A program made the position numbers and the translations under genes. 43,879 nt of DNA, from NCBI GenBank assembly GCA_013360185.1, contig JABWCO010000011.1, forward strand, positions 1 through 43,879. The letters are read 5' to 3'. Shown piece by piece: positions 27,099 through 42,208 of this stretch. This DNA comes from Bdellovibrio sp. (GTDB lineage Bacteria; Bdellovibrionota; Bdellovibrionia; Bdellovibrionales; Bdellovibrionaceae). A model generated the notes under the pieces. The model was not told the DNA's origin. It saw nothing but the letters and a program-made list of their open reading frames with translations, and searched no databases. Numbering within the stretch: position 1 is the first letter of the stretch; each line of letters begins with the position of its first letter.

Positions 27099-27135
27099 AA
27101 AAAAAGGGCCCGCCTTAATGTGATGGCGGGCCTTT
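27099..27135. terminator. Bidirectional terminator between nrdD and nnrS
   Basis: GGCCCGCC (27107-27114) pairs with GGCGGGCC (27125-27132). On the minus strand a run of seven T residues follows, making a strong terminator for nnrS; on the plus strand only TTT follows. The stem includes the last codons and stop of nnrS. Confidence 0.85.
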
Positions 27136-28266
27136 AGTACAAATCATTTTAGGAATCAGTAAAAAGCCCCACACTAAAAGCCCCAAAATCCAAGTACAGG
27201 CAGCGTATAAAAGATGTGATTGGTAAATATGCGGAGCAAAACCCGCTGACAGACGAGTCAATCCGGCCAGTGCCAATAGTCCTGCGCCGATAAAAAGAAT
27301 TTTAGACTTATTTTCAATCTGCATGTCATGTTTTCCGTGTGACAGAGTAACCCGAGTAGCGATCATCACCGTCATCAGACCCAAACCAGAAACCAAAATA
27401 ACATGCAAAATATGAATGCGCTGACTAGGGAAAAAGACCAAAGCCCACTGTCCTAACAACAAGAACCAACCAGAACCCCAAAGCCAATAACTTTGAAAGG
27501 CCTTCCTTTTTGGCCACAAATGCAGTTTCCAAAACTTATAGGCAATAAAGGAAATTAAGACAGCTCGTAAAAAATGTGCTGCCACTTTGTACGGCGTCAC
27601 CTCCAAAATATAGCTTAATAAAAATAAAAAAGCCAAGGTGGTGAACAACTTCATCTGAGGCTGCATTTTCATCGCTTCCGTGGGCAAAGGTGCAGAGCCC
27701 AGCAACGCTGGAATCAGGCGACTGCCTACGCCAAGGACCAAACAAAGGACATAGGCCTGTAAAAAAAATAGTCGTCCAAGGTCATAGATCTGATTGGGGA
27801 TATTAAAAAATTCTGCCAAGAATAGAATGACCGACCCAATAATTCCGGCACCAACACCGAAACCCACAAATAAGAAAGAATCCGGTGGATTCTTTTGACG
27901 TCTCAAAAACCGACGCATCAAGTAGAAAATGAGAAAAACAAACAGCGCAATAACCATCGCATAAAAATAGCTTTTCTGTTGTGGCAGTAAACTTAAAAAA
28001 AGTCCTGCAAGCAACGCAAACGCCATCTTTTGCTCTGCGACCGTCGGCCCAAAGGTTTCCGTGAACCGTGGTGCCGCTGTCATTAAAAACCCACACACAA
28101 AACAAAGAAAAAAACCGCCCATCATGATTTCAGGATGATGCAGGCCTGGATAGCTTACAAGATTCCAGGGAAATAAGATCCATAAGAGGACCCCCCACAA
28201 ACCTAAAAGCCAGCCTGCGGGAAAAAAGTATCGATATGCATCCATCTGTGTCGTAGTCGTAGCCAT
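27115..28266 (-). CDS. nnrS: NnrS family heme/copper membrane protein
   Basis: A 383-residue integral membrane protein with about 12 helices. Family features are HPEIMMGGFFLCFVCGFLMTA near the N-terminus and the histidine-rich segment HILHVILVSGLGLMTVMIATR followed by LSHG in the second half. NnrS contains heme and copper and relieves NO stress; its gene is normally controlled by NO-responsive Crp/FNR regulators. The ATG at MATTTTQ is chosen because GGGG lies at suitable spacing; an ATG six codons upstream lacks a ribosome site. A perfect FNR-type box lies 62 bases before this start. Confidence 0.9.
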   Translation of the reverse strand: MATTTTQMDAYRYFFPAGWLLGLWGVLLWILFPWNLVSYPGLHHPEIMMGGFFLCFVCGFLMTAAPRFTETFGPTVAEQKMAFALLAGLFLSLLPQQKSYFYAMVIALFVFLIFYLMRRFLRRQKNPPDSFLFVGFGVGAGIIGSVILFLAEFFNIPNQIYDLGRLFFLQAYVLCLVLGVGSRLIPALLGSAPLPTEAMKMQPQMKLFTTLAFLFLLSYILEVTPYKVAAHFLRAVLISFIAYKFWKLHLWPKRKAFQSYWLWGSGWFLLLGQWALVFFPSQRIHILHVILVSGLGLMTVMIATRVTLSHGKHDMQIENKSKILFIGAGLLALAGLTRLSAGFAPHIYQSHLLYAACTWILGLLVWGFLLIPKMICTKGPPSH

Positions 28267-28299
28267 AATAAAACCCCAGCTCATCTAAGATATAGGCTT

Positions 28300-28341
28300 A
28301 TGATACCGAGCATATCCACCCCTGTCTTTGATTCAAATCAA
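28300..28341 (-). promoter_or_regulatory. FNR/DNR-dependent promoter of nnrS
   Basis: TTGATTCAAATCAA (28328-28341) is a perfect TTGAT-N4-ATCAA palindrome. On the minus strand a -10 hexamer TATCAT (28305-28300) begins exactly 22 bases after it, giving a box centre near -41.5, the class II activation position. On the plus strand, toward the U32 gene, no -10 sits at that spacing. Confidence 0.85.
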
Positions 28342-28422: not shown

Positions 28423-29682
28423 ATGACACCAGAATTATTGATGCCCGCCGGATCTTTAGAAAAATTGAAATACGCTTTCGCTTATGGGGCCGACGCCGTA
28501 TATGTTGGTATCCCACTTTTTAGCCTTCGTGCCCGTGAAAACGAAATGGATTTTAACGACCTGAAAGAAGGCATCACCATCGCGCGAGCCCAAAATAAAA
28601 AAATCTATGTAACGGCTAATATTTTTGCGCGAAATCTCAAGCTAAAGTCTTTCAAAGAAAACTTTAAAAAGTGGGTCGAGCTGAAACCTGATGCCTTTAT
28701 CATGAGCGACCCTGGGCTGATGATGATTGCTCGCGAAGTGGACCCCTCGGTCAACATTCATCTCAGCGTGCAAGCTAACTGCATGAACTGGCAAAGCGTA
28801 AAGTTTTGGCAAAAACAAGGTGTCACCCGAGTGATTCTAAGTCGTGAATTACGTTTGGAAGAAATCAAAGAAATCCGCGAACGCGTTCCCGATATCGAAC
28901 TTGAAGCTTTCGTGCACGGATCTATCTGTATTGCCTATTCCGGGCGTTGTCTGCTGTCACACTATATGAGCTATCGCGATGCCAACCAAGGCGTTTGCGA
29001 TAATAGCTGCCGCTACGGTTACAATATTCACAAGGCAGAGACTGAAAAGGACCAAGAATTTTATTTGGAAGATCTGCGCAACAAAGGTGAATTTTATCAA
29101 ATCGACGAAGATGAAAATGGCACCTATATCATGAACGCCAAAGACCTTTGTGTTATCGAACATCTTCAGGAACTGCGTGACGCAGGAATTTGCTCTTTCA
29201 AAGTCGAAGGCCGTACGAAATCTCTCTACTACGCCTCTTTAGTGGCGAAGATTTATCGCCAAGCGATTGACGATATGATGCTCGGTAAAAAGTTTAACCC
29301 ATCGCTGCTAGCTGAGCTTAATAAGATTCCCAATCGCGGTTATCACAAAGGCTTCGTCACTGGAAATCTAAGTCATGAATCTCAAGAGTACCGTCACTCT
29401 ACGTCGCGTAACTATAGTCAACGCTTCGCCGGCCTGGTCTTGGGGGATTCAAATAAAAATGGCTATGTAAAAATTGAAGCCCGCCATCGTCTGCGCCCAG
29501 GGGAAGAACTCGAAATTATTTCTCCAACAGGTACCATCAAAACCACGGTCGGAAATATTTTGAATGAAAGAGGCGAGCCTGTAGCACAAGCTGGAGGCGG
29601 AGGTTTAACATTTCAACTTGAAATGGCGCAACAGCCGCCGCCATATTCACTGGTAAGCTTAATAGAAAAGGGTGGCTTTTAG
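28423..29682 (+). CDS. trhP: U32-family protein, TrhP/YegQ-like tRNA hydroxylation enzyme
   Basis: A 419-residue protein matching the U32 'peptidase' family, whose YegQ/TrhP branch takes part in prephenate-dependent hydroxylation of U34 in tRNA. It starts ELLMPAGSLEKLKYAFAYGA and has LSVQANCMNWQSV, the family signature EAFVHGSICIAYSGRCLLSHY, the cysteines in GVCDNSCRYGYN, and FKVEGRTKS. These cysteines probably hold an iron-sulphur cluster. It lies divergent from nnrS across a region with an FNR box. The tRNA role is family knowledge, and some U32 members act in ubiquinone or rRNA modification instead. Confidence 0.8.
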   Translation: MTPELLMPAGSLEKLKYAFAYGADAVYVGIPLFSLRARENEMDFNDLKEGITIARAQNKKIYVTANIFARNLKLKSFKENFKKWVELKPDAFIMSDPGLMMIAREVDPSVNIHLSVQANCMNWQSVKFWQKQGVTRVILSRELRLEEIKEIRERVPDIELEAFVHGSICIAYSGRCLLSHYMSYRDANQGVCDNSCRYGYNIHKAETEKDQEFYLEDLRNKGEFYQIDEDENGTYIMNAKDLCVIEHLQELRDAGICSFKVEGRTKSLYYASLVAKIYRQAIDDMMLGKKFNPSLLAELNKIPNRGYHKGFVTGNLSHESQEYRHSTSRNYSQRFAGLVLGDSNKNGYVKIEARHRLRPGEELEIISPTGTIKTTVGNILNERGEPVAQAGGGGLTFQLEMAQQPPPYSLVSLIEKGGF

Positions 29683-29688
29683 CCACCC
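29670..29688. terminator. Hairpin between the U32 gene and the chemoreceptor gene
   Basis: GGGTGGC pairs with GCCACCC across a five-base loop and includes the stop codon of the U32 gene. On the minus strand TTTTCT follows, so it can end the nor-chemoreceptor transcript; on the plus strand there is no T tract. Confidence 0.6.
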
Positions 29689-29760: not shown

Positions 29761-31557
29761 TCATTCGCCAGCGGTCTCATTCGCTAAAGAACTTTTATCT
29801 TTTCCGTCAACCAAGATCGAAAGCAAAGTTGCTAGCTGATTAATATTGGTAGTTTGCGCATTCATCTGATCAGAAAATGCCGAAACCTCTTCCGCCGCAG
29901 AAGCATTTTGTTGCGTCGATGAGTCCAACTCATTCACCGCTTGACTGATCTGGTTTATACCTTTTGATTGCTCTTCACTGGCCATCGATATTTCCAAATT
30001 GATCGTCGAAATTTGTGAGATAGTCTCCACGATCTTACCCAAAAACTGTTCGCTCGAAGATGCTTTGCGGGCTCCGTCTTCCACTTTCTCGCTGCTGTCC
30101 TTAATCAATACGGCAATATCTTTAGCTGCCACCGAGCTCTTTTGCGCCAAGGTTCTAACGGCATCAGCCACGACAGCAAAACCTTTACCTTGCTCCCCAG
30201 CTCTGGCCGCCTCGACCGCCGCATTAAGTGCCAAGAGGTTCGTCTGAAACGAAATATCTTCGATAACATTAATGATTTCTTCAATCTTCGCTGAACTTTG
30301 AGAAATTCCGGCCATAGCTTGCATTAGTTGCAACATTTCAGATTTACCTTTTTCAGCAATTCCCTGTCCTTGAGACGACAGATCCGCGGCAAGCTTAGCT
30401 TTGTCGGCATTCACTTTGACGGTGCTGCTTAACTCCTCCATCGAAGCGACAACTTCCTCGAGGGAACTTGCGGACTGGACAGACCCGGTCGCGACTGAAT
30501 GACTTGCCGAGGTCAGTTGTTTACTGCCCAACAAAATGGACTCCGAAGCGCTAAACAAACTTCCCACAGCTTGGCGCAATGAGGAGTCCAAGTTCCTAAT
30601 CATAAGCGTCGCAAGGACCGTCATCAGCACTATTAAAAAGACCAACCCTGCCAGCGAAAAATAAAATAACTTTGAGGTTTTGCTATGTAACACCTGAATT
30701 ATCGATTCCACATGATCAATTTCGAAGCCAACAATTCCGCCAAGATTATTTAACGCCAGGGTGATATCGTCGAAAAAGCGTGTCGGATCTTCATGAAAGT
30801 TACCTTCGCTCGACTTACCTATAATGTTATTGAATGTTTCCTGCACACCCAGCCACTCCTTAGACCTTTGAAAGTCAGCAAGCTTCACTTTGGCCTCTGG
30901 TGAAACCACCAATGCCGGAGACCCCAAATTCGCGACCACCCCTGTGCGGAGACTTTCTAAGGCCGACACCTGAAGGATCGTCAGAGGCTTATCCGACGAA
31001 ATAACATTCAGAATATTCGCGCGTAACCTACCACCCTGCTCTTTCCCTAGCTCCAATATAACTAAACCTAAGAAGCTCATTTCCACACCTTCAAAGGCCT
31101 GATCTGAGGCAACGATAACGTCTATATCAATAATCATTGAAATGATTCGCGTTATTTCTTTGGTCGCTTCCTGTGGGATAAGAGTTTTACTTTTAACGTT
31201 CCCACGAAATGCATCGAGATCCTTTCTTGACTGAGAAAATACTTGAGTCGCTTGCGCATCGGCTTGGACATTCTTAAGCTGGTTCAGTGAGGCTTCCCAT
31301 TTTTCGTCTACGGCCTTTTGATATTCTTCTAGCTGCCCAAAATCGATTTTTGTACTTAGGAATAGTGCTGTTTTCGCTCTCTCTAATTGAAGATCGTGAA
31401 TGAGGGCAGAGTTTGTTTTTAGAAGTCTCCCATTTTCCACCACTTCGTTGGCCTGGCGTAAAATAGACCAATTTGAATTCAGATAAACGGTTCCGAAAAC
31501 AAAAGCCACGATGGCAGGTAACACTATAAGACCAACTATTTTCCACTTTAAACTCAT
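29761..31557 (-). CDS. Methyl-accepting chemotaxis protein with nitrate/nitrite-sensing-like (NIT) domain
   Basis: A 598-residue chemoreceptor: membrane helix 5-26, a periplasmic sensor of about 270 helical residues, membrane helix 298-320, then a long signalling coiled coil with the hairpin tip around 435-465 ([21 protein letters not shown]). The sensor has [32 protein letters not shown] and a [11 protein letters not shown] segment, a layout like the NIT domain that senses nitrate and nitrite. A HAMP domain is not obvious, and there is no C-terminal methyltransferase-tethering pentapeptide. It lies 38 bases downstream of norD on the same strand with GGAG before its ATG, so it is probably the last gene of the nor operon. 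Ligand is inferred. Confidence 0.85.
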
Positions 31558-31595
31558 TGCTGCTCCAACTTGGATGTAAAAATTTTTTTTAGTAT

Positions 31596-33536
31596 TTATT
31601 TAAGTAAATTTGCAAATAGCTCGGTCAATGCTTTAGGTAACTTACGCGGGCTGGGCAAAATTCGAATATTCGCGGTACCGAACATTTGTGGCAGATAAAA
31701 CTTGGCATTTTCTTCCACGGCTAGACACTTAATGTGCACGCTCTCGCGACGCGCTTCGCGAATGGCTTGTTTTATATCTTCCATGCCATATCGCCCCTCG
31801 TAATGATCATAGTCCGATGCCTTGCCATCGCTAAGCAGGAATATAAATTTATGCCTCGCTGATGACTTTCGCAAAGTTTGCAAAGCGTGACGCAAGGCTG
31901 GGCCTATGCGCGTGTAACCGGCTGGCTCTAAGGTACTTAACCTTCTTTTAAGCGCAACCCAGGGCTCTGAAAAATCCTTGAGGACCTCATAACTGCAATG
32001 ATGACGGGTATTGCTATGAAAAGCCGATACCGCGATGGTTTCTGGATCTTGCGCAAATGCGTCACTTACAAGAGTGACACTGTCTTTTATGACATTCAAA
32101 ATTCTTTGATTGGCGACCCATGAATCAGTAGACAGACTGTTGTCCAAAAGAAGTACGCATTGCCAATCTTTCTTTTGTTTTTTATTACGAAAATAAAGTC
32201 GATCATCCGAAGAGAAACCGCCACTGAGATCGGCAAAACGATTGACCAGAGCATCGATATCAAGCTCTACGCCGTCACGTTGTCTCTTTTGCCACAAGGG
32301 CTTGTGCCTAATCTGATCAAAGACTTTTAAAATTTCTTTTCGCTCCTTATGATAGCTTTGATCCAAAATGTGCAGCGGTCCCATAGACGGATGGCAGACT
32401 TCTAGCCGACACCAATCCTTACGGTAGGACTTTTTTTTATAGTCCCACTCGGGATAAAAGACTATCTCACTGGATGCTGTTTGGGGGGAGCTTTCGCAAA
32501 TCAGATCAGGCGCCACATTATTAAGACGGATGTCAGCCTTATAGATCGACAACGTTCTTTCGCGACTGCGAGTGACTTCACTAATTTTTAGTTCTTCAAG
32601 GGCCTCGCTGTGGTCTTGCAAATTGTCATCACCATCCTCGGTACGCATCCCACCCTGATATTCCTCCAAGGTCTCGACCTTTTCAAAGGCGTGCAACACG
32701 GGGTTATTTTCATCTTTGGCCTTTTCTAAATTAACTTTAACCACATCTTCACGGGTCTTCCCTTGGATTTCCGTCCCACTGGGCAAAGCTTCAGAATTTA
32801 TTTGGTCTTGTACCTCTTGAAGCCCGGCCGTCTCAAGACCTGGAGGCATTAGCAGTCCCCAAAGTATAAATGCTTCATCGGCCAATTCAGGACCCGCAGG
32901 TAAATTCGCAAAATGCTCTTGATAGACTCCCTTTGCAAACTTCCAAAAAGCGAAAGTATTTTTATAGTTCTTACAAAGAAGATGTTTCCACGGGCTCTGC
33001 GCATAGCTCTTAGATAAGGTTGTATAAATCCAGTCAGCCAAAATGCCATTCTGAGTATTTTTTTGCTGGACCGGCAAAGAGTTCAATTCAGTTTTGGTCT
33101 GCTCACTCAACATTTCCAGAACCTGCAAAGACCCAGGAAATTCCAGCTCTATAAGCTGATAAATCTGATAAATAGCCAAGCAAGTATATATTTTCTTTTC
33201 GAGGTTTGATAAATTTTCGGGGGGCAGACAAAAACCCAGCTGTTTCGCCGAACAATAAAATAAAGTTCGTTGAATATACAGAAGCTCATTCAACTCCTTA
33301 CAGGCAAAGGGACACAACGAACGCGGATAATAAAAATGGTTGCCAGCAAATCCGCCCATACGTTCCGCTTCCAAAATATGAATGGCTTCGCGGCAAAGGG
33401 ATTTTGATATAATATGCAAGCGCGGTTCTAGGTCCTTAAGATCGGCCCTCTGCTCATAGTGTGCCGGTGGAGGTGGTGCCGTCAGCTTCTTAAAAAGACG
33501 ATGACTAAAAGCAAAAAACTTCTCGTCAAAGCCCAT
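31596..33536 (-). CDS. norD: NorD, von Willebrand A-domain protein for NO reductase activation
   Basis: A 646-residue cytosolic protein needed with NorQ to make NorCB active. The C-terminal VWA domain (from about residue 460) has the metal-binding DNSLSTDSW, a threonine in [13 protein letters not shown] and [10 protein letters not shown], a typical MIDAS set. The large N-terminal helical part with LVWHRD-like spacing is diverged. One base separates it from the norQ stop. MoxR-type ATPases and VWA proteins act in pairs, and NorQ is the partner. Downstream it is followed by the chemoreceptor gene, an unusual end to a nor operon. Confidence 0.9.
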
Positions 33537-33537
33537 A

Positions 33538-34326
33538 TTAGAAAATCATGGCAGCCACGTCGCGCAAAGCTGTCATGATGTCCCCTTCATCGGTTAGGGG
33601 CTGAATGATCGCGACATCACAAGCTCGGCGCGGATTTAGTCCACCACGAATGATTTTTCCCGCATCCACCAAAAGTCGCGTGGATGCTGTTTCGGCAAGC
33701 CCCAGCTCTTTGAGGTTGCGAATCTTTTCAGCAAAGCGCACTAACTTTTTTGCGGTATCTAAAGTGCAACCTGACTCCGTCGCGACGATCTCTGTTTCCA
33801 CTTCCGCTTTAGGGTAGTCAAAATGTACTGCCACAAAGCGCTGACGCGTCGAAGGTTTCAACTCTTTTAAACCCCGTTGATAACCAGGATTAAAACTTAC
33901 AATAAGCATAAACTCAGGAGGTGCTTTGATTTCTTCGCTTAACTTATCAATGGTCAAAGAGCGACGATGATCGGTCAAAGGATGTAAAACCACGACGACA
34001 TCTTCACGGGCCTCTGAAATTTCATCTAAATATAAAATCGCACCTTCACGGATCGCCTTGGTCACCGGTCCATCCTGCCAAACCGTGTTGCCTCCTTGGA
34101 CTATGTATCTGCCAATCAAGTCAACCGCAGAGGTGTCTTCATTGCATGCAACTGAAATTAAAGGACGCCCTAAGCTCATGGCCATCGCTTCAACAAACCG
34201 AGACTTTCCACACCCCGTAGGCCCTTTCAACATCAACGGCAAGCGATTCTGATAAGCCAGCTGAAAAATATGTTCTTCATCGTCAGTGGCTTTATAGAAG
34301 GGAACCTTAACTATTGGTGCTAGCAT
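33538..34326 (-). CDS. norQ: NorQ, MoxR/CbbQ-type AAA+ ATPase
   Basis: A 262-residue AAA+ ATPase that works with NorD to insert or activate the metal centre of NO reductase. Walker A is GPTGCGKSRF, Walker B is ILYLDEISEA, and sensor residues are in LIVSFNPGYQ. CbbQ/NorQ C-terminal features (ASTRLLVDAGKLI-like, ending IQPLTDEGDI) are present. The ATG preceded by AAGGTGG lies inside norB, overlapping its end by 20 bases, so translation is likely coupled. The open frame's upstream 18 codons are not used. Confidence 0.94.
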   Translation of the reverse strand: MLAPIVKVPFYKATDDEEHIFQLAYQNRLPLMLKGPTGCGKSRFVEAMAMSLGRPLISVACNEDTSAVDLIGRYIVQGGNTVWQDGPVTKAIREGAILYLDEISEAREDVVVVLHPLTDHRRSLTIDKLSEEIKAPPEFMLIVSFNPGYQRGLKELKPSTRQRFVAVHFDYPKAEVETEIVATESGCTLDTAKKLVRFAEKIRNLKELGLAETASTRLLVDAGKIIRGGLNPRRACDVAIIQPLTDEGDIMTALRDVAAMIF

Positions 34327-35650
34327 TTTCCACCTTCCCTTTGGGCAACCCATATTTGATAAATATCCAAATAAAGGCAAAGATCCCGGCGCTGAATAAG
34401 ACCGCCGCCATCACTAGTCCCAGAAAGTGCACTTCAATTTCTTTTTGAACTAAAAGAAAGTCCAAGCCCATTTTTCTTTCAAGATAGACCTGCGCCACTC
34501 CGGCAATACCAAAGGCAACCGTCATCGCAGTCATACCGATATTCGATGTCCAGAAAGCGAAGGTACTCCAACCACTGTCGTAAAGTTTTCTTCCTGTTAG
34601 GTTGGGCATCGCATAGGCAATAATCGCAAAAATTAGCATCGCATAGGCACCCCAGAAAGCGAGATGTCCGTGCATTGCTGTTACCAATGTTCCATGAGTA
34701 TAGACATTCACCTGAGGCAAGGTGTGCGCGAATCCCAAGAATCCGGCACCAACAAACGACATCACAGAGCACCCGATTGTCCAGGTCAAAGCCAAACGAT
34801 TCGGATGCTGCCGTCCACCTTTCTTGGCCATAGTAATGGCGTAAATAGCCATACCCAAAAATGCCACCGGTTCAAGCGCACTAAACAGACCACCAATCAT
34901 TAACCAGTACTTTGGTGTACCGATAAAATAATAGTGATGTCCTGTTCCTAAAATTCCCGATAGGAAGGTGAAGCCCACAATAACATATAGCCATTTTTCA
35001 ATAATTTCGCGATCGACACCAGTCAGCTTAATCAAAAGAAAGCTAAGTATGGCCCCCATGATAAGCTCCCACACTCCTTCAACCCAAAGATGCACGACCC
35101 ACCATCTCCAGTAAGAGTCCATCGTCTGATTCACGGTCGGAATCATACCCGGCAAATAAAGCAAAGCGGCACTTAATAGGCCAAAAAATAAAACCATATT
35201 CGTGGTGCTGTACCGGCGTCCTTTCCAGATCGTTCCGCCGATCAAGAAAATAAACAATAGGACATCAATCACCACGAGGTAATCCAAAGGGCGAGGAATT
35301 TCTAAAAATTTTCGACCTTCCCACCAGTTAAAGTGAAAACCAATCACCGCCGTAACCCCGACGGCAACGAAGGCTCCCAGTTGTACATAGGCGAGTTTTG
35401 GAAAGATAAGCTCTCGTCCTGATTCTTCGGGAGTGATGTAATAGGCCGCCCCCATAAATCCCGAAAGAAGCCACATTACCAGCAAGTTCGTATGCGTTGC
35501 GCGTGCCGCATGAAAAGGAATATAGTCATGCAAATTATCGAAGCCCATGTGGGCAAAGCCCATGATAAATCCATAAACAATCTGCAGCGACAAGAGAAGC
35601 ATGGAAACGGCGAAAAAATAATAAGCGATTTTCTGTGTTTTAAATTTCAT
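34307..35650 (-). CDS. norB: NorB, cytochrome c-dependent nitric oxide reductase large subunit
   Basis: The catalytic membrane subunit that reduces two NO to N2O. It has about 12 helices in 447 residues, the size of cNorB; quinol-type enzymes carry an extra N-terminal domain, absent here. Metal-ligand segments are ARATHTNLLVMWLLSGFMG, VHLWVEGVWELIMGAILSF, GTGHHYYFIGTP (the histidine pair at the non-heme iron site), and MHGHLAFWGAYAM. The glutamates in WVEGVWE match those needed for catalysis. It lies nine bases after norC. Confidence 0.97.
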   Translation of the reverse strand: MKFKTQKIAYYFFAVSMLLLSLQIVYGFIMGFAHMGFDNLHDYIPFHAARATHTNLLVMWLLSGFMGAAYYITPEESGRELIFPKLAYVQLGAFVAVGVTAVIGFHFNWWEGRKFLEIPRPLDYLVVIDVLLFIFLIGGTIWKGRRYSTTNMVLFFGLLSAALLYLPGMIPTVNQTMDSYWRWWVVHLWVEGVWELIMGAILSFLLIKLTGVDREIIEKWLYVIVGFTFLSGILGTGHHYYFIGTPKYWLMIGGLFSALEPVAFLGMAIYAITMAKKGGRQHPNRLALTWTIGCSVMSFVGAGFLGFAHTLPQVNVYTHGTLVTAMHGHLAFWGAYAMLIFAIIAYAMPNLTGRKLYDSGWSTFAFWTSNIGMTAMTVAFGIAGVAQVYLERKMGLDFLLVQKEIEVHFLGLVMAAVLFSAGIFAFIWIFIKYGLPKGKVENASTNS

Positions 35651-35659
35651 ATAAAGTCC

Positions 35660-36343
35660 TTACTTCAACTGAGAAAGAAAATTTGCAAGCTCTAAAATTT
35701 GCTCGTCTGTCAGTGGCAACTTGGGCATTTTAGAGTCTGCCTTTACCGCAACTGGGTCTTTCAACCAGGACACAAAATAATTTTGTTCAAACCGATTGCC
35801 GACTCCATCTAAAGCCGGCCCCACTGCACCGCCTTTACCTTTAAGACTGTGACAAGCAACACAAACTTGGTCGTAAATGGCCGGATGTGCTAATTCTGCC
35901 GCAGAAACTGGCTCTGGATTTACCGGAGCCAGATCAGGTTTTGCCGGGAATCCATTTAAGTCGACTTCCCCAATCCATTTTAAGAATGCAACCAACGCAT
36001 CAATTTCTTCTTCTGTGAAATTATACTTCTGCATTTTACGTTGCCCCGGGAACATCGCCTGAGGATCTTTTAACATCGCACGAATAAAAGGTTCTCCACG
36101 ACGGGTGTAGACTTTTGTCAATTCCGGCGCGTAATATGCGCCTTCCCCCATAATGGTGTGACAACCCATGCAGTTGTTATGGTCCCACAGATCTTTACCA
36201 TGGATAACTTCGGGCGTGATATTTTCGGACCGTGTCTGGTGCGGGACTCGCTGAATAGTATCAATGGTTAAAACCACAAAACACCCAGAACACAGAACAG
36301 TACCGATCAAAAAGAATTTTTTGGCGGCGGACTTCGACAACAT
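35660..36343 (-). CDS. norC: NorC with an additional C-terminal cytochrome c domain (di-heme)
   Basis: The membrane-anchored cytochrome c that feeds electrons to NorB. After one N-terminal helix (about 9-27) comes a canonical NorC domain: CMGCHTIMGEGAYYAPEL with heme site at 58-62 and a methionine ligand near 104. A proline-rich linker (about 136-148) leads to a second cytochrome c domain with CVACHSLKGKGGAVGPAL (161-165) and methionine near 206 in KMPKLP. Typical NorC has about 150 residues and one heme; this one has 227 and two. The second domain may be the docking electron carrier. The ATG after AAAGGAG is used; the preceding 15 codons lie in the leader. Confidence 0.93.
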   Translation of the reverse strand: MLSKSAAKKFFLIGTVLCSGCFVVLTIDTIQRVPHQTRSENITPEVIHGKDLWDHNNCMGCHTIMGEGAYYAPELTKVYTRRGEPFIRAMLKDPQAMFPGQRKMQKYNFTEEEIDALVAFLKWIGEVDLNGFPAKPDLAPVNPEPVSAAELAHPAIYDQVCVACHSLKGKGGAVGPALDGVGNRFEQNYFVSWLKDPVAVKADSKMPKLPLTDEQILELANFLSQLK

Positions 36344-36368: not shown

Positions 36369-36410
36369 ATCGTAATTGAGGAAGCCAAATTTAAAATTGA
36401 TTCAGATCAA
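36369..36410 (-). promoter_or_regulatory. FNR/DNR-dependent promoter of the nor operon
   Basis: TTGATTCAGATCAA (36397-36410) is a full TTGAT-N4-ATCAA site. On the minus strand TACGAT (36374-36369) begins exactly 22 bases later, followed by norC after a short leader. The box overlaps the stop codon of the upstream decarboxylase gene. Confidence 0.85.
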
Positions 36411-38188
36411 TAATTCATAAATATTTCGGAGCCCTGGTGACCTTTAGGATCCCCCGTCACTCTTTGCTTCAGGGCATTTACGAAGAGAGTTAAGAAATCA
36501 TTTTTCATTTCAATAGATCGAAAGAACGGATTCATAATACAAAGGCGAATCAACACCAGGCCTTCGCAATCATTGCTCCCCTGCCAAGATTGAACAAAAG
36601 AGTCCACGTATTGGGAATAGCTTTTCTTATAAAGGTACGTCTTAGATACAAAAAAATCTGTGTCTGCCGAGCCAGAAAAGGATTCGTAAATACTCAAAGT
36701 TCGTTTATTAACCTCTTGCACAGAATCTCCGTTCGCAGCCAAACAAAAGCCCAGGAGATTGGCATCACCAAAAGGAGCCACCCGCACTTCAGGAATCTCA
36801 GAGCACAAGCGCTGTTCAAGCTCTTTACGCAAACGAATGGTGCGCGCGATAATTCGCCCATAGCCTTGCTGGCCCAGTCCCACACAGCGTGCCGTCATCC
36901 AAGTCGCGACGGCCCCCGTTGCCGATCGCGAACCTTCCAGGGTAAAGAGTCCCTTGTCATAACCTTGGGAAAAATTAACATAGGGACCACCAAAGGAACG
37001 TTGATAATAGTCCTGGCCGGCAGCCGCAATAAAGGCTCCGCATGCATAAGGCACATAGCCTAACTTATGTGGATCTATGGTCACAGATGTCGCGAACCTT
37101 ACTGCTTTTACCGCAGCTAAACTGACTGGCGAAAGAACATCGCAGACTTCAGAGTCATCTCCTTGCAGAGAACACAAAAATCCACCGTAGGCGGCATCAA
37201 CGTGATGCCACAAGTGCCAATCATGTTTTTCTTTAAGTTCTGCAACCACCTGTGCGACCTCATCAATCGGATCGATCATGCCTAACTCAGTCGTGCCAAG
37301 CACAGAAACAATCATCGCAATAGGACGGTCTTGCTCTTGCGCCAGCTCAATTTTCTTTCTTAAATCCATCACATCCAAGTGGCCATGGCTGTTTAATTTC
37401 ACAGACCAGAAGGCTTCCGCTCCCAGACCAAAAACATGGGCGGCTTTCACCCACGAATAGTGTTTGTGTTGGGGAACCAACAGAATGGGTCCTAAAAAAG
37501 TTCGCTCGGTTTTTGCTGAAATAGATGCGCTTGCCACAAATGGATTGGTTGCCGTCGGGTTTAAACACGCCGACCGCTCCTTTAGATCCGCTGGCAACAT
37601 TTGATACCTGTGCCAGCCCATTAAAGAACTGGCAAAAGCCGATGAGGATCCGTCTTCCAAACCAGCCGCCATCCAATCGTAACAGCGTGCCAGAGCACGA
37701 TAAACGGCTTCAAAGTTAGCAACGGTTCCGCCCGAAGTAAAGTGTCCCACTCCCTGTTCTAAGCCCATCATCAGGCTTAAGGCGGCGATGGCCTCATCCT
37801 CTACTTGGGTGCCCACCAATGAAGACTCGGCAGAAATATTGTTGGGATTATGAAGCAAGGTAAGAATATGACCGAATAACGCCGGCAAAGATACTTCTGA
37901 AAACATATGACCAATGTAACGTGGTGAAAACTTAGGAATTTCATTCTCAAAACGTTTGGACAATTCTAGTAAAACAGCTTCGGTTGTTTGCCTACGCAAT
38001 ATATATTCCGGCTGCAGCATATCCTGGTCAGAAATCGCGATACCATCCCCAGGACGAAAATTCTGGCGCCACTGAAACCAAGCTTTTAATAAAGTCTCAA
38101 CTTGCTCTAAAACCCAATTCTGGTTTTCCGCCTGAGGTCCCAAAAAAAGGCCCTTCAAAGCCACTTCTTCCTTCTTACATGTGTCCAT
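36407..38188 (-). CDS. PLP-dependent group II decarboxylase (glutamate/tyrosine decarboxylase-like)
   Basis: A 593-residue pyridoxal-phosphate enzyme. Cofactor-binding features are clear: HFTSGGTVANFEA (phosphate site), HHVDAAYGGFLC (ring-stacking and aspartate), and the Schiff-base lysine in TIDPHKLGYVPYACG. The C-terminus (LVLIRLCIMNPF) matches the group II decarboxylase fold. Substrate cannot be read from sequence; aromatic amino acids, glutamate, aspartate or cysteine sulphinate are all possible. It is transcribed toward norC and its stop codon lies inside the nor FNR box, so read-through into nor is possible. It starts divergently from the second Crp-family gene. Confidence 0.85.
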   Translation of the reverse strand: MDTCKKEEVALKGLFLGPQAENQNWVLEQVETLLKAWFQWRQNFRPGDGIAISDQDMLQPEYILRRQTTEAVLLELSKRFENEIPKFSPRYIGHMFSEVSLPALFGHILTLLHNPNNISAESSLVGTQVEDEAIAALSLMMGLEQGVGHFTSGGTVANFEAVYRALARCYDWMAAGLEDGSSSAFASSLMGWHRYQMLPADLKERSACLNPTATNPFVASASISAKTERTFLGPILLVPQHKHYSWVKAAHVFGLGAEAFWSVKLNSHGHLDVMDLRKKIELAQEQDRPIAMIVSVLGTTELGMIDPIDEVAQVVAELKEKHDWHLWHHVDAAYGGFLCSLQGDDSEVCDVLSPVSLAAVKAVRFATSVTIDPHKLGYVPYACGAFIAAAGQDYYQRSFGGPYVNFSQGYDKGLFTLEGSRSATGAVATWMTARCVGLGQQGYGRIIARTIRLRKELEQRLCSEIPEVRVAPFGDANLLGFCLAANGDSVQEVNKRTLSIYESFSGSADTDFFVSKTYLYKKSYSQYVDSFVQSWQGSNDCEGLVLIRLCIMNPFFRSIEMKNDFLTLFVNALKQRVTGDPKGHQGSEIFMNY

Positions 38189-38276: not shown

Positions 38277-38290
38277 TTGATCCAAATCAT
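38277..38290. promoter_or_regulatory. FNR-type box between the decarboxylase and second crp-like gene
   Basis: TTGATCCAAATCAT matches TTGAT-N4-ATCAA at nine of ten conserved bases. It is 45 bases before the Crp-family ATG and 89 bases before the decarboxylase ATG. No -10 hexamer is found 22 bases away on either strand, so it may act by repression or at another distance. Confidence 0.6.
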
Positions 38291-38334: not shown

Positions 38335-39048
38335 ATGACAGACACACTAAATCGCCTAAAGAACTTGGATTGCTTCAAACCTATGTCCGAAAGAGACTTA
38401 AAAGAAATCTCTTCGCAATTCGAAGTCGTATACGTGAAACAAAGAGACATTCTTTTTAAGGAAGACACTGCGATCAAGGACCTCTATATCGTCTTGTATG
38501 GTTCCTTTAAAATTCAAAAGAAAGTCCATCGTTCTACTCCCGTCATTTTAAACTTTTTAGGTCGCGGCGAATTCTTAGGTATCGCCATGGCGGGAATCAC
38601 CGTACCAAAGTACCCGGCCTCTGCCGTCGCCAACGAAGACGGCGCCTTGCTGCGTTTTGACCGTAACTTCTTCCTGAATACTCTGATGAAAATGGAAAGC
38701 GTTAAGACCGTCGTCAATCAGCAAATGGGTGAACGTTTCCTCGAGTTTCAAAATGATCGCTGTATGGAAAAAGCTCGCATACCGCAAAAGATCGCAGATT
38801 TTTTGTTGCGCATGTGCCGTCGCCAGAAAAATAATAGCGGCCAGATTCAAATACCGATTACCCGCAAAGAAATCGCCCAGCGGGTAGGTACACATACCGA
38901 AACGGTGATTCGCGTTTTAAGCCTATGGACTAAGAATGGGTGGATCCGCACCGAGGACAAACATATCGAATTGCTGGCAATTCATGAAATTGAAAGAAGC
39001 TGTGGACCTATGAATATTCCTTTAGAACTAGAAGTCGATAGCAAATAA
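38335..39048 (+). CDS. Second Crp/FNR-family regulator
   Basis: A 237-residue regulator with effector barrel (DLYIVLYGSFKIQKK, FLGRGEFLGIAMAG), dimer helix and winged helix (TRKEIAQRVGTHTETVIRVL). The recognition helix reads ETVIR (189-193): E and R are kept, but the FNR serine is isoleucine, so the preferred site may differ from TTGAT. No N-terminal cysteine cluster is present (C13 only), so it is not an iron-sulphur FNR. Its place between nor and nir genes suggests an NO- or redox-responsive role. A short bidirectional terminator follows. Confidence 0.88.
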   Translation: MTDTLNRLKNLDCFKPMSERDLKEISSQFEVVYVKQRDILFKEDTAIKDLYIVLYGSFKIQKKVHRSTPVILNFLGRGEFLGIAMAGITVPKYPASAVANEDGALLRFDRNFFLNTLMKMESVKTVVNQQMGERFLEFQNDRCMEKARIPQKIADFLLRMCRRQKNNSGQIQIPITRKEIAQRVGTHTETVIRVLSLWTKNGWIRTEDKHIELLAIHEIERSCGPMNIPLELEVDSK

Positions 39049-39333: not shown

Positions 39334-39392
39334 AGGGTCTCCTTTTCTGCTTTCAGCATAAAAGAATTCCCCTTGCATTACCTTGATTCGAG

Positions 39393-40007
39393 TCAATTCT
39401 TGATAAATTTTGCCAATTCTTTGGGATCTTTATCCGCCCCTGACTGTTGCCCTTTAATAACGCCTTCAGAATCCAATACAGTAATAATAAACGAATGGTC
39501 ATAGTCCATTTCGTCGATCTTTTTATATTTAATTCCTAACAAAGTCGCTATTTCGCGTGGAGATTTATCGGATTCGGCAGTATAAAAGTCCCAATTTTTA
39601 CTGAGCTTCCGTTTTTCGACGTATTTTTTTATCACTGGTGGAGTATCTTTTTTAGGGTCAAAACTGACTAAAACAAAGTGCACATTACGCACTCCCTTTT
39701 TATCCAATTCCTTTTCCAACTGCTGCATGTGGGAAATGATCAACGGACAAGCATATGCACAACTAGTGTAAGCCATCGAAATAACCACCGGTTGGCCCTT
39801 TAACGACTCCAAGGAGATTTTTTTTCCATCGACCGTTAGCAGTTCTGACTTTAAATTGTAAATCGACTCATCCTTTAACGGCTTCACACTTTCCGCCGCT
39901 GGAGTCGCCGCTTTCTCTTGGTGATGATGGTGATCTTCTTTCGCCAGCGCTATCCCAGCTACCAAGTTGAAACTTAAGATACCCAACATTATTTTTAAGA
40001 CTTTCAT
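39393..40007 (-). CDS. SCO1/SenC-type copper-binding thioredoxin-fold protein
   Basis: A 204-residue exported protein: signal peptide (about 1-22), a histidine-rich stretch (DHHHHQ, about 26-31) and a thioredoxin fold with the copper-binding CAYAC near residue 85 and the conserved histidine in MDYDHSFIITVLD. SCO proteins deliver copper or act as thiol reductants for CuA oxidases; PrrC/SenC members occur with respiratory gene sets. Next to a copper nitrite reductase, copper delivery to NirK is a reasonable inference. It follows nirV by two bases. Confidence 0.9.
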   Translation of the reverse strand: MKVLKIMLGILSFNLVAGIALAKEDHHHHQEKAATPAAESVKPLKDESIYNLKSELLTVDGKKISLESLKGQPVVISMAYTSCAYACPLIISHMQQLEKELDKKGVRNVHFVLVSFDPKKDTPPVIKKYVEKRKLSKNWDFYTAESDKSPREIATLLGIKYKKIDEMDYDHSFIITVLDSEGVIKGQQSGADKDPKELAKFIKN

Positions 40008-40009
40008 AA

Positions 40010-40774
40010 TTAATCCTTATCCTTTGCACAGCGAAACCCCAAATTCTTTACGGTGTATTTCGCTTGTAAGCTGCTGCGAAAAGCGTATCTCATAAACGCA
40101 GCATAATCACTTGGATCTGCCGCTGATGAAGCGCCTCCGCCACAGAATAAATTTCTATCAAGTGCCGCGTCGGCGCGCGACTCTCCGGTGACCATTGATG
40201 AATTAAAATCTTCAACCCACTCCCAGATAACTCCATGCTGATCGTAAATACCCGCAGTATTCGCAGAACGCTTCATAACAGAGGGCAACGGCCATTCCGA
40301 GCTCTGACCATACCACTCTAAGATTACCGTCTTTAAGTCATTCTTGTCTTTAAAAGGCATCTGTCCGACATATTCCCATTCGTCAATTACCGGCAAACGC
40401 TTGCCCAGGCTTGCACAATAAGCACGAGCCGCATACCAACTGACTCTGACAACGGGGGATGAAGCCCCAGATGTCTTATCGAAATCTAAATCTCCAGACC
40501 AATATTCTAGATAGTTTGCATCAGCAAAAATTTTCTTTACGGAACTTTTGTGCCACTCTGGGTGCTGCTCTACGAATGAAAGATACTCCGCATTCGTTAC
40601 CGGATGCTTGTCCAAATAAAAGGAGTTTACTTTTCGCGGAGTTTTATCAAGAAAGGCCGGCATCCGAAAGGAGCCGGCAGGGATCAGAATCATACCGTTG
40701 CCCCAAGAGGGCAAGGACATGAAAACCCCAAGAGCTAAAACTGCAAGCATCAGTGGCCGCTTGGGATTTTTCAT
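40010..40774 (-). CDS. nirV: NirV-like protein, formylglycine-generating-enzyme (SUMF1) fold
   Basis: A 254-residue exported protein (signal peptide about 1-25) of the SUMF1/FGE-sulphatase fold: MILIPAGSFRM at the start, VNSFYLDKHPVTNAEYLSFVE, VVRVSWYAARAYCASLGKRLP, GVIWEWVEDF, and the terminal NLGFRCAKD. Genes of this fold placed after nirK are called nirV; their role is not settled. The position 12 bases downstream of nirK supports the name. Whether it has any catalytic activity cannot be judged from this sequence. Confidence 0.82.
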   Translation of the reverse strand: MKNPKRPLMLAVLALGVFMSLPSWGNGMILIPAGSFRMPAFLDKTPRKVNSFYLDKHPVTNAEYLSFVEQHPEWHKSSVKKIFADANYLEYWSGDLDFDKTSGASSPVVRVSWYAARAYCASLGKRLPVIDEWEYVGQMPFKDKNDLKTVILEWYGQSSEWPLPSVMKRSANTAGIYDQHGVIWEWVEDFNSSMVTGESRADAALDRNLFCGGGASSAADPSDYAAFMRYAFRSSLQAKYTVKNLGFRCAKDKD

Positions 40775-40786
40775 TTAACACCTATC

Positions 40787-42208
40787 CTATTTTACTCTTC
40801 CCGAAGCGCGGATTGCTTTTACTTCGTCAGGAGTCACTGTTTTTTTAGAGTTACCCCAAGCAGAGTAAACATAATTTAAAACATTGGAAATTTCGTCATC
40901 TGTCAACACTTGTGCCGGCATGATAGAATCATATTCTTTACCATTCACAGTCACTTTGCCGTCCATACCGTGGACTACGGCAGAAATCGATTTGCTTTTA
41001 TTCTTATTTAAAAAATCTGACTTAGCTAAAGGAGGGAAAGCCCCTGGCAAGCCTTGACCATTCGTCTGATGGCAAGCAAAGCACGAAGATTCGTAAATTC
41101 TTTTTCCACGCGCAATACTTTCTTGAATGTTTTTCGCAGGAATAATCTTCGGTGCACTTTCACCAACTTCTTGGATAACGCCGCCTTCTGGTTGATAAAT
41201 TCCGTCTTCAGTTTTTCCAGAGTAAATCTCTTTAACGTGCTCGCCCTCAACCTTCAACATTCCCAAAGCACCTTTATTGAAGGCACGGAAGATAGAGTGA
41301 TCAACCAAGATGAAAGTTCCCGCTGTATCCAACTTAAATTCTACAATTGCAGAACCACCGGCTGGAACCAATGTCGTTTGCACGTTTTCATTAACTAACT
41401 TTCCGCCTTCAATATAGACCCTATCGAAAATTTCACCGATCACATGGAAAGAAGATACTAAATTCGGTCCGCCATTACCGACGAACATGCGAACTTTTTC
41501 ACCTACTTTTGCTTTGATCGCGTTGTCACCAACAAGAGCTCCAACATTGCCGTTAAATACGACGTAATCTGCTTTTTCTTCAACAGCCTTTGTCATGCTG
41601 AAAGGTTGCAAACCCGGAGCGCCGTATTTGCCTTTTGTGTAGAACTCACTTTGCATAACATAGAATTCTTTATCTACTTTTGGCATGCCTTCTTTAGGTT
41701 CAACCAAAATCAAACCATACATCCCGTTGGCGATATGCATTCCCACTGGAGCTGTTGCACAGTGATAAACATATAAGCCTGGATTTAAAGCCTTAAAGTT
41801 AAAAGTTGAGCTGTGGCCCGGAGCTGTGAATGAACCTTCGGCACCCCCACCTTGTCCAGTCACTGCGTGCAAGTCGATATTGTGAGGTAATTTGCTAGAA
41901 GGATGGTTATGGAGATGAAACTCAACCTGGTCTCCTTCACGAATACGAATAAATTTTCCCGGAACTTTGCCTCCAAAAGTCCAGAAAGTATAATCCACTC
42001 CGTCAGCCAAACGCATTTTAACTTCTTTCGTCTCTAGATCGACGATGACTTTGGTTGCATGTTTACGAGTGATTGGTGGCGGAACGTCAGGGGCATCCGT
42101 TAGGATTGCTTTTTCCTCCCCTTTAATTTTTTCTTGTGCATAGGCGGACACGGCAAATACCAGGGCCGCGATGCCGATCAATGATTTTTTTACTGCAGCG
42201 TACTTCAT
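40787..42208 (-). CDS. nirK: NirK, copper nitrite reductase fused to a cytochrome c domain
   Basis: Reduces nitrite to NO in the periplasm. Signal peptide about 1-24. Two cupredoxin domains follow with all copper ligands visible: type 1 site H109, C150, H158 and M163; type 2 site H114, H149 and H304; catalytic D112 and H255 are present. After about residue 360 a cytochrome c domain has [19 protein letters not shown] (376-380) and a methionine in SIMPAQ. Such a C-terminal fusion occurs in some NirK enzymes and supplies electrons internally. AAGGAG precedes the ATG. First gene of the nirK-nirV-SCO-DUF2249 operon with an FNR-type box upstream. Confidence 0.97.

Follow-up and report, generated by a model that had tools for sequence, protein, structure and literature searches.

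The 43,879-nt stretch of Bdellovibrio sp. DNA analyzed here (the window; contig JABWCO010000011.1) carries the nitric oxide reductase genes norC, norB, norQ, and norD followed by a chemoreceptor (MCP) gene. The features that bear on this arrangement are as follows.

27115..28284, minus strand: nnrS
29670..29688, minus strand: intrinsic terminator GGGTGGCTAAAAGCCACCC-TTTT beyond the receptor, overlapping the convergent U32 gene at its 3' end
29761..31557, minus strand: NIT-domain chemoreceptor (MCP), 598 aa
30739..31407, minus strand: NIT sensor domain of the receptor, with pocket motifs Q57xxR60 and G176xxR179
31558..31595, minus strand: norD-receptor junction of 38 nt, with a GGAG ribosome-binding site before the receptor ATG
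31596..33536, minus strand: norD, VWA domain protein, 646 aa (open reading frame list and profile match)
33538..34326, minus strand: norQ, AAA_5 and CbbQ_C domains (profile match)
34307..35650, minus strand: norB, large subunit of nitric oxide reductase (COX1 superfamily by profile match)
35660..36343, minus strand: norC, cytochrome c (Cytochrom_C), ATG at 36343
36397..36410, minus strand: perfect FNR/DNR-type box TTGATCTGAATCAA, centered 60.5 nt before the norC ATG
36407-38188, minus strand: PLP-dependent decarboxylase immediately upstream of norC (TIGR03811-like, far under the cut-off)
38335..39048, plus strand: CRP/FNR-family regulator that may act on the norC box
40010-40774, minus strand: FGE/SUMF1-like protein, between nirK and the SCO protein
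40787..42208, minus strand: nirK, copper nitrite reductase with a C-terminal cytochrome c (TIGR02376, above cut-off)

The five genes lie on a single strand in the order norC, norB, norQ, norD, receptor, and the first four follow the norCBQD order of cNor operons. NorB was called a nitric oxide reductase from this gene order and from the neighbors nirK and nnrS. As read from the sequence, the spacings are +9 nt for norC/norB, -20 nt (an overlap) for norB/norQ, +1 nt for norQ/norD, and +38 nt for norD/receptor, with norQ starting at ATG 34326 and not at TTG 34380. The sequence-only reading had described one strand with gaps of 38 bases or less and a terminator only beyond the receptor, and both points held. 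Consensus scans of the norD/receptor junction found no terminator and no sigma-70-like site, and folding of the junction RNA is not stronger than that of shuffled sequences (z +0.64). The terminator hairpin at 29688-29670 begins 72 nt beyond the receptor stop and is GC-rich, with a folding energy of -15 kcal/mol (z -3.17 versus shuffles) and a TTTT tail. The receptor would probably be read from the same transcript as norCBQD.

The window also contains a SCO protein, an FGE-like protein, nrdDG (anaerobic ribonucleotide reductase), and two CRP/FNR-family regulators. The FGE/SUMF1-like gene stands between nirK and SCO in every nirK locus seen (the window, L037, L042, L061, and L062), and a PLP-dependent decarboxylase occurs beside nor again in G003 (L040), G032 (L041), G054 (L061), and G028 (L062).

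Receptor architecture and the NIT sensor

The receptor matches the NIT profile (Pfam PF08376) over residues 51-273 at 61.7 bits (E 1.7e-16; curated cut-off 24.9 bits) and the MCPsignal profile (PF00015) over residues 391-546 at 161 bits (E 2.5e-47). Two hydrophobic segments at residues ~7-29 (TM1) and ~294-325 (TM2) flank the NIT domain, which is therefore placed in the periplasm. A profile search of the receptor gave no HAMP match at E<=1. In the full-length model a single continuous helix (residues 258-584) leads from TM2 into the signaling hairpin, with a pLDDT of only ~50-60 at residues 331-360. The signaling domain aligns without gaps to Tsr-type structures over ~260 residues. The receptor is the sole NIT protein of the window genome, which has 20 MCPs and a CheA-type domain.

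Profile, homology, and fold comparisons confirmed the earlier suggestion that the periplasmic domain is NIT-like. A profile built from 15 aligned sensors retrieved NasR as the only PDB sequence match (E 1e-12). For the sensor, AlphaFold gave a model (pLDDT 90.7) that superimposed on NasR (PDB 4AKK) with a Z-score of 31.1 and an rmsd of 3.4 over 270 aligned residues; the next best match had a Z-score of 13.1, the matches at Z ~13 being other helical bundles. Foldseek likewise paired the model with 4AKK (E 5.5e-07). Q57xxR60 and G176xxR179 of the receptor align with Q47xxR50 and G173xxR176 of NasR, where the NasR numbering includes a 27-residue offset of the crystal construct deduced from the numbering in PMC7496416. 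NasR, the nitrate-responsive NIT-ANTAR antiterminator of Klebsiella oxytoca, thus shares with the receptor the NIT fold and both pocket motifs. However, NasR is cytoplasmic and controls RNA, whereas the NIT domain in the window is periplasmic, lies between TM helices, and drives an MCP signaling domain.

FNR-type boxes around the nor genes

Boxes were defined by the FNR/DNR pattern TTGATNNNNATCAA, which is expected at a fixed upstream distance in genes of the regulon. The window genome contains 22 perfect boxes versus 1 for the reversed pattern, and the genomes compared contain 11-30 each versus 1-3. The box before norC is a putative promoter element of the whole norCBQD-receptor unit; in five relatives the norC boxes lie 59.5-67.5 nt before the start. 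A box belonging to the window receptor itself was rejected, as none with <=2 mismatches occurs from the receptor start to 32086, and the norC promoter is therefore the receptor's only visible route into the FNR-type regulon. An independent receptor promoter, which the sequence-only reading had allowed for, was not found either, the nearest box being that before norC. The CRP/FNR-family gene at 38335..39048 adjoins nor-nir genes in G020 and G006 also.

Two NIT receptors of relatives that are not downstream of nor have perfect boxes of their own, centered 58.5 nt (G019) and 60.5 nt (G008) ahead of the start codon, which is also the norC spacing. The G016 ortholog has no close box, and the G003 and G013 receptors of the same clade have none within 300 nt of their starts.

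Three further boxes in the window, one perfect and two with one mismatch, lie at 28328-28341 (in the nnrS-U32 interval), 38277-38290 (ahead of the second CRP/FNR gene), and 39383-39396 (past the nirK unit). Their positions suggest that the whole 15-kb block may be one regulon. In G008 (L046 6659) and G001 (L047 7543) a perfect box is found inside norD, some 740-750 nt upstream of a CRP/FNR gene, and norC of these two genomes has no FNR-type box within 200 nt.

Chemoreceptors and nor genes in relatives

Relatives were sampled as 24 genomes of the genus and 369 of the phylum. Within the genus, NIT proteins occur in 8/24 genomes and norB in 10/24. All seven genomes whose NIT receptors keep GxxR have nor, versus 3/17 of the others (p 3e-4, Fisher test treating relatives as independent). 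Across the phylum, NIT and NorB occur together in 15 genomes versus 4.0 expected (p 4e-7), and with the genus removed in 8/345 genomes (p 0.0013), both by Fisher tests that again treat relatives as independent. No NIT gene shared a contig with nor outside the genus, where many of the assemblies are fragmented. A scan of the collection with a 7-row sensor alignment returned three Bdellovibrio MAGs only as the nearest loci.

An MCP gene stands directly beside nor in 4 of the 10 nor-bearing genus genomes (the window genome, G019, G006, and G023) and one gene off in a fifth, G020. The chance that a given nor neighbor is an MCP gene is ~0.6% (20 MCPs among an estimated ~3,500 genes), and adjacency of MCP and nor in the genus is more than chance. 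When the ends of the nor operons were compared, as the sequence-only reading had proposed, the link was seen to recur in separate arrangements. In G019 the NIT receptor immediately precedes norC, in the same orientation; in G020 norD and the NIT receptor have between them a norE-like gene of the opposite strand; and in G016 the receptor ortholog is 12 kb from nor. Elsewhere the position after norD is taken by a hemerythrin-PAS gene (G003 and G013) or a CRP/FNR gene (G008 and G001). The hemerythrin-PAS protein (L039 4714-5733 in G013) is followed by CtaA in both genomes. G013 (L049 8927-12463) and G003 (L053 416-4236) also have tandem pairs of NIT receptors with unrelated neighbors and no FNR-type boxes close by. 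The main clade of the NIT receptor gene tree is internally poorly resolved.

In G006 and G023 the slot behind norD holds a receptor of another kind.

L042 4988-6538 (G006): receptor behind norD, no NIT domain, 4-helix-type sensor
L043 8053-9603 (G023): receptor behind norD, no NIT domain, 4-helix-type sensor

The distance from norD is 27 nt to the longest open reading frame and about 130 nt to the likely ATG. The G006 protein has a weak TarH match (E 0.0024) and no NIT match. In a tree of signaling domains it groups with the MCP L082 of the window genome (support 100/98), outside the NIT clade; L082, its ortholog, lies on another contig. The slot behind norD has therefore been filled at least twice, with the near-identical G006 and G023 loci counted as one case. 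A NIT receptor with a swapped sensor was rejected as the origin of the slot receptor, because its signaling domain belongs to the other MCP lineage.

G006 is presumably of the B. bacteriovorus HD100 type. Its nor cluster has the same order of nor, nirK, nnrS, and nrdDG as the window and an MCP gene right behind norD, but this MCP lacks NIT and comes from another MCP lineage. The HD100 nor cluster, bd2597-bd2602, has been described as a small cluster missing from strain Tiberius, in passages that mention no receptor (PMC3539863).

Ligand and role of the nor-linked receptor

We consider it somewhat more probable than the reverse that the NIT-MCP chemoreceptor is made from the norCBQD promoter and senses nitrate or nitrite when nitrite and NO respiration is possible. 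An FNR/DNR-type regulator would activate norCBQD and the receptor together at low oxygen in the presence of nitrogen oxides, and the cell would be able to sense nitrogen oxides only under conditions in which nitrite and NO can be respired. The receptor would be a transmembrane protein of the Tsr-like signaling class with a periplasmic NIT sensor. This sensor would most probably hold nitrate or nitrite between helix 1 and helix 5. The ligand signal would pass via TM2, with no HAMP domain, directly into the coiled coil controlling CheA, and the ligand would act as an attractant.

The main doubt about this mechanism is the ligand. NasR, NarX/NarQ, and McpN bind nitrate through GxxR-type motifs, one NasR motif being QxxR (PMC8199190), and residues E175/R176 of NasR helix 5 have been placed in the nitrate pocket (PMC7496416). 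Nearly every NIT domain inspected has the pocket residues. QxER and GxxR look like general features of NIT sequences, and the motifs therefore do not separate binders from non-binders. QxxR and GxxR are not diagnostic of binding; pocket residues are necessary but insufficient evidence for it. Nor is a NIT match by itself proof of nitrate binding, because in P. aeruginosa the NIT domain of PA4520 showed no binding of nitrate or of nitrite (PMC6381276). PA4520 belongs to the same NIT and MCP architecture class as the window receptor.

A receptor that is co-expressed with nor and whose NIT domain senses some other cue (another anion, or a redox or membrane signal) would accommodate the PA4520 result, as well as the proposal that the NIT family contains sub-families with different ligands (PMC6381276). 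The different, 4-helix-bundle-like sensor in the same slot of G006 and G023 also fits, in that the regulon need not be tied to one sensor. Nevertheless, we judge this explanation unlikely, as every residue of the NasR nitrate pocket is kept in the window receptor, and the sole NIT receptor type in the genus that loses GxxR, having AxxQ in its place, is the sole type in a nor-less genome (G018; the G008 ortholog also has AxxQ). These proteins form a natural contrast set within one genus, with pocket residues lost, and offer a direct choice for ligand tests. What NIT-domain chemoreceptors sense is of interest, as the one such receptor tested did not bind nitrate.

Nitrate respiration via NapA or NarG was rejected, as neither enzyme was found in any of the 24 genus genomes. 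Nitrate is therefore unlikely as a respiratory substrate, and nitrite and NO are the likely ones. Nitrite, with nirK in the window, or nitrate serving as a cue is more plausible.

The receptor could instead sit behind nor merely as a by-product of rearrangement, with a constitutive promoter of its own in the 3' end of norD. A weak internal promoter could escape consensus scans, and because the norE-like gene of G020 separates norD from the receptor, the window arrangement may stem from a deletion. The bare junction, the nor linkage in separate arrangements, and the FNR-type boxes on unlinked relatives make this account quite improbable. Predatory Bdellovibrio has several surface behaviors, and a receptor serving gliding, type IV pilus control, or array tuning in prey search is conceivable, but the Tsr-like signaling domain is of the type of E. 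coli flagellar control and renders such an output very improbable.

NIT receptors, nor operons, FNR control, and an MCP among the targets of denitrification regulators are already known. McpN (PA2788), the nitrate chemoreceptor of P. aeruginosa, is like the window protein an MCP whose periplasmic domain is helical, and it has a GxxR-type nitrate site (PMC6381276, PMC8199190). However, McpN has a PilJ domain that holds one nitrate on the dimer axis, in place of NIT, and its transcript drops with nitrate, whereas the window receptor lies in an operon with nor. Bradyrhizobium diazoefficiens has the same nor gene order in norCBQD under FNR/DNR/NnrR control, and its NnrR-dependent genes include the MCP blr2932 (PMC6710368). 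That gene is separate from norC (blr3214), whereas the MCP gene of the window is the last of the nor unit. A literature search, confined to sources other than subscription journals and so weak evidence, turned up no MCP gene described as part of a nor operon. Operon membership and regulatory sites are what link the present set of NIT receptors to nitrogen-oxide respiration.

The earlier idea that movement is tied to nitrogen-oxide respiration is thus partly supported, while denitrifying prey as the target of swimming finds no support in this analysis. Recurrence in relatives suggests that movement toward nitrogen oxides is switched on with nitrogen-oxide respiration. We put forward only tentatively, at somewhat less than even confidence, that the Bdellovibrio denitrification regulon repeatedly acquires a chemoreceptor, giving a nitrite or nitrate sense that is on only during nitrite and NO respiration. 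A predator without NapA and NarG would perhaps find in this way nitrite-releasing, nitrate-reducing zones or prey. If true, a predatory bacterium would have one switch for respiration and for navigation toward its substrate.
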